This document shows, piece by piece, positions 5,101 through 7,840 of a stretch of DNA of 64,000 nucleotides. A program made the position numbers and the translations under genes. The stretch spans positions 1 to 64,000 of the forward strand of contig NZ_AOIJ01000052.1 in assembly GCF_000337175.1 (NCBI RefSeq). The letters are read 5' to 3'. The notes beneath the pieces were generated by a model. The model worked only from the letters and a program-made list of their open reading frames with translations, was not told the origin of the DNA and did no database searches. Each line of letters begins with the position of its first letter. The first letter of the stretch is position 1. This DNA comes from Natrinema gari JCM 14663. GTDB lineage: Archaea; Halobacteriota; Halobacteria; Halobacteriales; Natrialbaceae.

Positions 5101-5133
5101 CAACCCCCCACCCCTTCGTTTCAGGTGGAACCC
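5101..5133 (-). other. Origin recognition box, left of unwinding region
   Basis: On the minus strand this reads GGTTCCACCTGAAACGAAGG followed by GGTGGGGGG. It contains the exact core GAAACGAAGGGG (complement of 5111-5122) plus the G-string typical of haloarchaeal ORBs. It points in the opposite direction to the ORB at 5444-5476, so the two face each other across the unwinding element. A second G-rich run (5140-5154) follows on the plus strand. Confidence 0.85.
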
Positions 5134-5192
5134 GCCACGAGGGTGGGTGGGGGTTCGACGGGATTTATAACGAGAAGGTTTATTTGGATCGG

Positions 5193-5321
5193 CTAGAAAC
5201 AGTATCCGTAGCACTAGCAAATAAGACGTTCTTACTAGACCTAGAATTTGGCTTACTAGACCCTACTAGAATCGGTTCTCAGAGGTGTCTGTATTACTAG
5301 ATTGCCTTCTAGATTACTAGA
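5193..5321. repeat. Helically phased CTAG boxes in the unwinding element
   Basis: Nine CTAG tetramers occur in about 128 bp. Seven start at 5193, 5214, 5235, 5256, 5266, 5297 and 5317, with steps of 21, 21, 21, 10, 31 and 20 bp, all close to multiples of 10.3 bp. Two (5241, 5309) are off phase. The last five in-phase boxes extend to TTACTAGA (one is CTACTAGA). CTAG is generally scarce in haloarchaeal DNA. The segment lies between the inverted ORBs and has low local GC, as expected for the origin unwinding element. Confidence 0.8.
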
Positions 5322-5443: not shown

Positions 5444-5476
5444 ATCTCCACTCGAAACGAAGGGGTGGGGGGATCC
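5444..5476 (+). other. Origin recognition box, right of unwinding region
   Basis: This reads ATCTCCACTCGAAACGAAGG followed by GGTGGGGGGATCC. It has the same 12-bp core and G-string as the ORB at 5101-5133, but on the other strand. A partial reverse copy, CGAATCGAAGGGGGAAG on the minus strand (5478-5494), follows immediately. The pair of strong inverted ORBs brackets the phased CTAG boxes. Confidence 0.85.
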
Positions 5477-5819: not shown

Positions 5820-6458
5820 ATGGGACTGTTCACAGAACTCAAAGATAGTATTTCCCGGGCTACGGACCGCCTGTTTTCGGAACAGGAGCCCAAACGAATC
5901 GGTATTTACGGGCCGCCGAATGCCGGCAAGACGACGCTCGCGAACCGTATCGCGCGTGACTGGACTGGTGACGCGGTCGGTGCGGAGAGCCACGTCCCCC
6001 ACGAGACACGCCGCGCACGCAGGAAAGAAAACGTCGAGATCGAACGGGACGGCAAGACGGTGACCATCGACATCGTCGATACGCCGGGCGTGACGACGAA
6101 GGTCGACTACGAGGAGTTCACCGACGAGATGGACGAAGAGGACGCGATTCGCCGCTCCCGCGAGGCGACCGAAGGCGTCGCCGAAGCGATGCACTGGCTA
6201 CGGGAGGACGTCGACGGCGTCATCTACGTTCTGGATAGCGCGGAGGACCCGATCACGCAGGTCAACACGATGCTCATCGGGATCGTCGAATCGCGCGATC
6301 TCCCCGTTTTGATCTTCGCGAACAAGACCGACCTCGAGGAATCGAGCGTCAAGCGGATCGAGGACGCCTTCCCACAGCACAAGACCATTCCCCTGTCCGC
6401 GAAGGAAGGCGACAACATGGACGAAGTGTACGACAACATCGCCGAGTACTTCGGGTGA
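5820..6458 (+). CDS. oapA: Origin-associated Era-like GTPase OapA
   Basis: This is a 212-residue small G protein. It has G1 GPPNAGKT (31-38), G3 DTPG (87-90), G4 NKTD (168-171) and G5-like SAK near the C-terminus. The ATG at 5820 is preceded by GGAGG (5807-5811), a good Shine-Dalgarno match, and a TATA-like GCTTAAGTG lies at 5758-5765, so the mRNA should have a short leader. An out-of-frame ATG at 5789 opens a 19-codon ORF overlapping this start. OapA, OapB and OapC are encoded together beside the main origin in haloarchaea. The name reflects location; a direct role in replication is not established, and related archaeal GTPase sets have been linked to cell-surface or motility functions. Confidence 0.88.
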   Translation: MGLFTELKDSISRATDRLFSEQEPKRIGIYGPPNAGKTTLANRIARDWTGDAVGAESHVPHETRRARRKENVEIERDGKTVTIDIVDTPGVTTKVDYEEFTDEMDEEDAIRRSREATEGVAEAMHWLREDVDGVIYVLDSAEDPITQVNTMLIGIVESRDLPVLIFANKTDLEESSVKRIEDAFPQHKTIPLSAKEGDNMDEVYDNIAEYFG

Positions 6459-6464
6459 TTACCG

Positions 6465-6866
6465 ATGCCAAAAGCAACTAACGCGGACGACTCGGACGCA
6501 CCCGACGGCGTACAGATCGACCTGATCAGCGGCGAGCGAATGGCCGGCATGGCGACGATGGAGAAGATCAGGATGATCTTAGACGGCGTCCACGATGGCA
6601 ACATCGTCATCTTGGAGGAGGGGCTGACACCCGACGAGGAGAGTCGCCTCATCGAAGTGACGATGGCCGAAATCAGTCCCGACGAGTTCAACGGGATCGA
6701 GATCGAGACCTACCCCAAGTCGGAGACCCGTGACTCGTCGCTGCTCGGTCGTATTATGGGGAGTGACGAGACGGAAGCGAAGCTGACGGTGATCGGGCCG
6801 GCGAACCAGATCGAGACGCTCCACAAGGACGAAACGCTCATCAGCGCGCTCGTGTCCCGTAACTAA
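6465..6866 (+). CDS. oapB: DUF2073 protein OapB
   Basis: This is a 133-residue soluble protein of the DUF2073 family, always found with the adjacent GTPase in haloarchaea. It has an acidic N-terminal tail (1-20) and then a mixed alpha/beta domain without recognisable catalytic residues. It starts 6 bp after oapA and its stop shares one base with the oapC start, so the three genes should be one transcript and translationally coupled. A partner or effector role for OapA is inference from this linkage. Confidence 0.85.
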   Translation: MPKATNADDSDAPDGVQIDLISGERMAGMATMEKIRMILDGVHDGNIVILEEGLTPDEESRLIEVTMAEISPDEFNGIEIETYPKSETRDSSLLGRIMGSDETEAKLTVIGPANQIETLHKDETLISALVSRN

Positions 6867-7840
6867 TGCCACATCAGTGTACGAACTGCGGCCGGACGTT
6901 CGCCGACGGTTCCAAGGAGATGCTGTCGGGGTGTCCGGACTGCGGCGGGAACAAGTTCCAGTTCGCGCCGACCACGACGGCCGCAGCCGAATCGGCCGAC
7001 GGAGCGGGGACTGACGGTTCCGAAGCGGCCGAGACCGCAAGCGGCTCCGCGGACGCGTCCTCGTCCGAACCGGACAACGTCGCGACGCGCGCCGCGGAGA
7101 CCGTTCGCGACTGGGTGTCGGCCGACTCCGCCGACGATTCAGGCCCGGACGCCACCGAACAGCCGCCATCGGCCGGCTCGACGGCAGCCGCGGAGTCGGA
7201 CCGGTCCTGGCCCGCAAGCGACGATGCTGACAGTAGCGATTCGGAGTCGCCGTCGGACGGCGAGTTCGAGGAGTGGCCCGAGACGGCCCGGCGACCCGAG
7301 GATCGGTCCGGATCGCCGGCCGCGGCAGCCCCCGAATCGACCGGCACGGAGTCCGACGAGCAGTCCCATTCCCAGACCCCGTCGAACCGACCATCGAACG
7401 GTCCGACCGCGACCATGGCGGACGACGAGAACTCGGCACAGGCCGACGCCCGGAGCGAAGTCGTGCCCTCGGACGATCTCCCTGCACACTCCGAGCGCTC
7501 CGAGAAGGGCGATGCGGAATCCGACGCCGATGCAGGCAGTGTCGCCGGCCCGCATAGTGAAGCCAAAACCGGGGCTGGGGTCGAGTCCGACGACGCCGAC
7601 CATCCCCCGGAACACGGGCGCGTCGTCAGCGAGCCGAGCGGGCAGCGCCCGTCGATCGAGGACCTTCGGGCGGAGCTCAACGAACAGTTCGAGAGCATCA
7701 AGATCGTCCGGCCGGGACAGTACGAACTCAACCTGATGGAGCTCTACAATCGGGACGAGTACATCATCTCCCTGCAAGAGGACGGCCGATACGTCATCGA
7801 CGTCCCGGATTCGTGGCACGACGGCGACGAGGACGACTGA
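6866..7840 (+). CDS. oapC: Zinc-ribbon protein OapC
   Basis: This protein has 324 residues and three parts. Residues 1-32 are a zinc ribbon (CTNC, then CPDC). Residues about 35-255 are a low-complexity Asp/Ser/Glu/Ala linker with no hydrophobic core. The last 65 residues are a folded domain beginning IEDLRAELNEQFESIKIV. The C-terminal domain of OapC-family proteins is the conserved part; the linker varies. It shares one base with oapB. It may tether the GTPase module to nucleic acid or protein through the ribbon; that is inference. Confidence 0.85.
   Translation: MPHQCTNCGRTFADGSKEMLSGCPDCGGNKFQFAPTTTAAAESADGAGTDGSEAAETASGSADASSSEPDNVATRAAETVRDWVSADSADDSGPDATEQPPSAGSTAAAESDRSWPASDDADSSDSESPSDGEFEEWPETARRPEDRSGSPAAAAPESTGTESDEQSHSQTPSNRPSNGPTATMADDENSAQADARSEVVPSDDLPAHSERSEKGDAESDADAGSVAGPHSEAKTGAGVESDDADHPPEHGRVVSEPSGQRPSIEDLRAELNEQFESIKIVRPGQYELNLMELYNRDEYIISLQEDGRYVIDVPDSWHDGDEDD

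Follow-up and report, generated by a model that had tools for sequence, protein, structure and literature searches.

Why should CTAG, a tetranucleotide avoided elsewhere in the 64,000 nucleotides of Natrinema gari JCM 14663 DNA analysed here (the window), be crowded into a short stretch beside an orc1/cdc6 gene? The window contains 27 copies of CTAG, compared with 83 ± 8 in dinucleotide shuffles, and nine of these fall within 128 bp (positions 5193–5320), the other 18 being scattered over the 64 kb. An earlier note on this DNA had drawn attention to the rarity of CTAG, to the concentration of nine copies, and to the spacing of seven of them at near-multiples of 10.3 bp, and had proposed that they represent selected architecture in an unwinding element. 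These proposals are borne out by the data presented below.

It is apparent that the segment lies within the unwinding element (DUE) of oriC1, the main replication origin of this salt-loving archaeon. It is intergenic, with orc1/cdc6 on one side and an Era-like GTPase gene, followed by those for OapB and OapC, on the other. Two inverted ORBs with G-strings enclose 331 bp, with the AT-rich unwinding element in the middle, so that the order is orc1, ORB, DUE, ORB and oap genes (Table 1). The G+C content of the segment is 39.5%, compared with 65.4% for the window. It is the seventh least stable of 63,871 segments of 129 bp and forms the melting minimum between the inverted ORBs. The CTAG boxes were also considered as ORBs, and this was rejected: by inspection, TTACTAGA is unlike the ORB consensus GAAACGAAGGGGTGGGGG.

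Table 1. Features of the oriC1 region of Natrinema gari. Coordinates are those of the window; offsets are distances in bp from the left ORB.
Feature	Coordinates	Strand	Basis or remarks
orc1/cdc6 initiator gene of oriC1, 594 aa	2657..4438	-	ORF; NCBIfam ORC1-type replication protein, 653 bits; Pfam Cdc6_C
Left ORB with G-string (CCCCCCACCCCTTCGTTTCAGGTGGAAC)	5104..5131	-	Sequence, pattern, inverted partner
Second G-rich stretch in left ORB (GAGGGTGGGTGGGGG)	5139..5153	+	Sequence; situated where a G-rich repeat enhances oriC1 in Haloarcula hispanica (PMC3936714)
TATA-like run TTTATTT, position conserved; putative promoter	5179..5185	+	Alignment, other families
Box 0, CTAG	5193..5196	.	Offset 70; Natrinema and a few others
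Conserved element AAACAGTATCCGTAG, common to most haloarchaeal oriC1	5197..5211	+	
Box 1, CTAG in GCACTAGCAAA context	5214..5217	.	Offset 91
Box 2, TTACTAGA	5232..5239	+	CTAG at 5235, offset 112
Extra CTAG, out of phase, without family conservation	5241..5244	.	
Box 3, TTACTAGA	5253..5260	+	CTAG at 5256, offset 133; CTAG columns invariant in 14 genus representatives
Box 4, TACTAGAA	5264..5271	+	CTAG at 5266, offset 143
Box 5, TTACTAGA	5294..5301	+	CTAG at 5297, offset 174
Extra CTAG, out of phase, without family conservation	5309..5312	.	
Box 6, TTACTAGA	5314..5321	+	CTAG at 5317, offset 194; Natrinema
Right ORB with G-string (CTCCACTCGAAACGAAGGGGTGGGGGG)	5446..5472	+	Sequence, pattern
Era-like GTPase adjoining the origin (oapA position)	5820..6458	+	Anchor in relatives
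oapB, origin-associated protein	6465..6866	+	Pfam OapB
oapC, origin-associated protein	6866..7840	+	Pfam OapC

Seven of the nine CTAG sites form a ladder, with start-to-start steps of 21, 21, 21, 10, 31 and 20 bp; the remaining two, at 5241 and 5309, fall outside this phase and show little conservation. When all nine sites were considered, the best period was 10.42 bp (p = 0.007, with a period scan from 9.8 to 11.2 bp). The seven boxes conserved in Natrinema gave R = 0.978 at 10.34 bp (p = 5e-5), and the five conserved in the family gave p = 2.5e-4; the null in each case was random placement of sites within the observed span, and the ladder was regarded as one evolutionary arrangement, its p values not being multiplied by the number of genomes. 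Over the whole range from 4.5 to 30 bp, no period scored better than 10.35–10.4 bp. Because the seven boxes can be selected by conservation instead of by phase, their choice from the nine is not arbitrary. Strict matches to TTACTAGA number four in the ladder and 18 in the 4.02-Mb genome, as counted by pattern searches. No second ladder was found elsewhere in the genome, where short CTAG clusters only were observed.

To place the ladder in a wider context, oriC1 was anchored in relatives by the GTPase gene (243 genomes searched, 67 of them again). The DNA upstream of this gene was read in about 170 relatives, in 117 of which a simple pattern sufficed to locate the two ORBs; that pattern missed 52 origins, most of those of genus g22 among them. 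Within the Natrialbaceae the CTAG offsets from the left ORB are fixed, at 42 (in other genera), 70, 91, 112/113, 133, 143, 174 and 194 bp. The core boxes and their spacing are kept in 32 aligned origins of the family, the 10-bp pair being present in 30 and the 31-bp step in 31 of them (G200, the origin of which does not align, was excluded), and the expectation that the spacing would hold in relatives was thus realized. In an ungapped comparison across 14 genera, mean pairwise identity was 0.38 for spacer columns and 0.60–1.00 for CTAG columns, the values for boxes 1 and 2 being lowered by one-base shifts. The boxes are also oriented, since TTACTAG was found 88 times in the forward and three times in the reverse direction, and ACTAGA 94 times versus six. 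The occasional additional CTAGs show no such phase (mean cosine 0.06, n = 11). A scan of 84,980 species genomes for the exact five-box spacing pattern returned 64 stretches, 34 of which derive from Natrialbaceae, and the named relatives that have this pattern agree with a place of the window in the genus Natrinema; a four-box scan of viral contigs returned 101 stretches.

CTAG enrichment extends beyond this family, and the phase does not. CTAG ranks first of the 16 palindromic tetramers for enrichment between the ORBs in families f4, f6, f7, f12 and f17 and in the enzyme-bearing members (see below) of f5, and third in f14. The TTACTAGA context is absent from the other haloarchaeal families (TTACTAG, one forward and six reverse), and no 10.4-bp phase was detected in genus representatives outside the Natrialbaceae (p = 0.69), in which the best local period was 11.1 bp (p = 0.28 with scan). 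Phasing as a general haloarchaeal trait was therefore rejected; in their phased, oriented ladder the Natrialbaceae have elaborated on a known type of element.

That type of element was reported by Blow et al. 2016 (PMC4752239), who found CTAG clusters at orc1/cdc6 starts in haloarchaea, noted their correlation with the presence of an orphan methyltransferase, and proposed that they take part in replication; the motif is spelled CATG in the running text of that paper and CTAG in a figure legend. The present cluster shares the motif, place and enzyme family of those clusters (Fig. 6D of that paper), and the absence of the cluster from genomes without the enzyme: its CTAG density is far above the genome level, it occupies non-coding DNA at an orc1/cdc6 start, and the genome encodes a homologue, so assigned by homology, of the orphan CTAG methyltransferase. 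The remark in the earlier note that no description of the array was known is consequently not supported for the cluster as such. What has been published on it is confined to motif density, and PMC4752239 contains none of the words spacing, phased, helical or periodic. Unlike the published clusters, the Natrialbaceae ladder has fixed positions, a 10.35-bp register, one orientation and the TTACTAGA context, all confined to this family. The phased, oriented ladder and its family-wide conservation appear to be undescribed in the literature searched.

An N6_N4_Mtase protein (METHYLTRANSFERASE), encoded at G000:C30:192949-194001, shares 47% identity over 97% with the methyltransferase of the Methanothermobacter plasmid pFZ1, the gene for which adjoins a gene for an MjaI-family nuclease. 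MjaI cuts CTAG, and we take MthZI to be the pFZ1 system. No MjaI-family nuclease was found in the Natrinema gari genome, so the methyltransferase looks to be an orphan. A CTAG-specific MthZI system of Methanothermobacter is cited in PMC6471742, and members of the orphan m4C-CTAG methyltransferase family include HVO_0794 (PMC5867850) and cHG U (PMC6471742). CTAG is thus likely to be the target of the encoded orphan m4C methyltransferase, a specificity assigned by homology only.

Homologues of this enzyme were identified in 221 of the 243 genomes, and CTAG between the ORBs tracks the enzyme by clade. The enzyme-less Haloferacaceae have no CTAG there in six of six called segments, and three more, read across contig ends, have 0, 1 and 0; at least one copy is present in 12 of the 17 Haloferacaceae that have the enzyme (one-sided p = 0.002 versus the enzyme-less members), a comparison in which losses of the enzyme are few and clustered by clade. 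Three genomes of genus g22 and a few Natrialbaceae have the enzyme and no CTAG cluster. In one genome (G121), only 79% complete, no enzyme was detected and four CTAG are present.

Taken together, these data are consistent with a methylatable CTAG array that would be read on one face of the helix by an oligomeric, possibly SeqA-like, protein, an explanation that we favour tentatively. An oligomerizing, sequence-specific protein would bind the ladder in register, and its binding would be set by the methylation state of CTAG. Just after replication every box would be hemimethylated, and the array could then serve as an origin timer, the origin being closed while the reader is bound and released upon remethylation. 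Such a timer would follow the logic of Dam/SeqA at Escherichia coli oriC; it would work like that system and not be a member of it. A methylatable array is supported by the retention of the boxes and spacing while the spacers drifted, by the 10.35-bp period, by the lack of phase in TA steps outside the boxes, by the position of the segment at the melting minimum, by the presence of the enzyme with no MjaI-family nuclease and the near absence of CTAG between the ORBs of Haloferacaceae that lack it, and by the published link between CTAG clusters, orphan enzyme and orc1/cdc6 (PMC4752239). The asymmetric TTACTAG context (88:3) is more than a symmetric methyltransferase site alone would need. Counting against it are the genomes that have the enzyme and no cluster and the small number of clade-clustered losses. 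In addition, Ouellette et al. 2018 (PMC5867850) doubted a replication role for CTAG in Haloferax volcanii, where deletion of the CTAG methyltransferase caused no growth defect. Since phasing is absent from other families, phase would not be essential to CTAG methylation if the latter is the shared function.

In a more specific form of this proposal, a family-specific oligomeric protein would read hemimethylated m4C-CTAG in the phased, oriented TTACTAGA ladder and keep the DUE closed after firing, as a Natrialbaceae counterpart of origin sequestration; in all these particulars the proposal is rather unlikely. The likeness to E. coli oriC is that a methyltransferase target is clustered in an origin and that a hemimethylation timer is plausible. 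The E. coli system, in which Dam/SeqA provides replication-coupled control (PMC13337833), employs m6A-GATC, whereas the Natrinema ladder would employ m4C-CTAG (by homology) and has an archaeal initiator.

The main rival is an array that acts independently of methylation. Here the TTACTAGA sites would be bound by a nucleoid-type or origin-activating protein (comparable to UBP with its ucm site, or Orc1 itself), which would wrap the DUE or position it so that MCM can be loaded, and CTAG methylation would be incidental. This is a doubtful but serious possibility, in that the extended, oriented consensus and the helical register are specific to one family. There is also a precedent in the ucm/UBP system of Sulfolobus oriC1 (PMC12141716), an essential protein site, likewise conserved, in a DUE between inverted ORBs. 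However, CTAG enrichment extends to families without the TTA...A context or the phase, and its association with the methyltransferase is left unexplained. Identity of the ladder with ucm was rejected because the sequence differs; ucm, moreover, is a single 11-bp site in a crenarchaeal origin and contains no methylation target.

Less likely is a purely structural or unwinding code, as the earlier note had also entertained, in which phased, flexible CTAG steps bend or destabilize the DUE with no dedicated reader. The segment is indeed among the least stable of the window, and a link between CTAG and kinking of the DNA has been described for a repressor complex (PMC6471742). Outside the boxes, however, TA steps show no phase (p = 0.6), which makes recognition of a word likelier than a general bend or melt code. 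All four CTAG letters and their flanks are conserved and the spacers are not, and in other families this region melts with no phase present. The idea is accordingly improbable. The comparison with DnaA-trios made in that note did not survive either. DnaA-trios proceed in contiguous 3-nt steps beside a DnaA box, and all that is shared is the repetition of short units containing TAG within an unwinding element; the steps of the ladder are 10–31 bp, and it resides in an archaeal Orc1 origin with no DnaA.

Promoter-linked regulation was also considered, in which the boxes would be operator sites for a repressor controlling an origin transcript that may start near 5205–5212. The TATA-like run at 5179 and the conserved AAACAGTATCCGTAG 15–30 bp downstream of it, found in most families, would agree with such a transcript, but the ladder is downstream of the putative start and extends over more than 100 bp, and this explanation seems distinctly improbable. 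Chance, or the neutral persistence of CTAG in AT-rich DNA, is very unlikely: the modest phasing of the nine sites of the window taken by themselves and the single origin of the ladder are in its favour, but the family-wide retention of boxes and spacing amid randomized spacers and the large share of Natrialbaceae among the five-box stretches refute it for the conservation, so that only the phase could still be accidental.

A conserved ladder points to a protein that reads or guards the site of DNA opening. Such a ladder would also mean that helical phase is constrained in an archaeal origin at places other than the initiator sites, for which no earlier report was found in the literature searched. 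As the boxes, their spacing and their orientation are known exactly, they can serve as a well-defined bait and be tested clearly by mutation; replicating origin plasmids have been described in the genus, in Natrinema sp. J7 (PMC5350488).

Several further observations were made on these origins. In six Natrialbaceae that have kept the methyltransferase (loci L092, L095, L087, L090, L091 and L096; genomes G087, G094, G235, G134, G164 and G036), CTAG is absent or infrequent upstream of the GTPase gene, and the ORBs are divergent or could not be called; one of the six, G087, retains the AACAGTATCCGTA element. Upstream of the second orc gene of Natrinema gari (L381:1786-1818; G000:C79:29750-29777), the sequence CTAGTTACTAGACCAGTCCAGTTACTAG contains two TTACTAG boxes 17 bp apart, and this is the CTAG cluster of contig C79. 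On contig C21, four CTAG lie within about 100 bp of DNA upstream of an orc gene; in most other orc upstream regions of the genome CTAG is absent or isolated.

Outside the Natrialbaceae, about two thirds of the genera (for example in f12, f14 and f17) have a CTAG 36–60 bp past the left ORB. The count is about 24.5 of 35 genera, compared with 10.0 expected from free random placement and 13.7 if placement is restricted to the middle of the segment; no CTAG occupies this interval in the Natrinema gari window. A second element common to other families is AACAGTATCCGTAG, at an offset of about 75 and with a TATA-like run upstream. Among 84 non-Natrialbaceae origins, its best match lies within the anticipated 31-bp interval in 64, compared with an expectation of 12.6. 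In relatives from most haloarchaeal families the AAACAGTATCCGTAG element keeps a constant distance to the left ORB, within offsets 64–94, and it may represent an origin promoter or some other protein site.

Finally, long CTAG arrays (often CCTAGG), with a copy about every 10 bp and degenerate linkers, were observed in rumen Prevotellaceae and other Bacteroidales. They are apparently intergenic and are situated at L228:2106-2201, L210:167-285, L252:1312-1398, L222:1706-1981 and L209:7435-7597. These arrays, which are unrelated to the archaeal origin, are strikingly regular.
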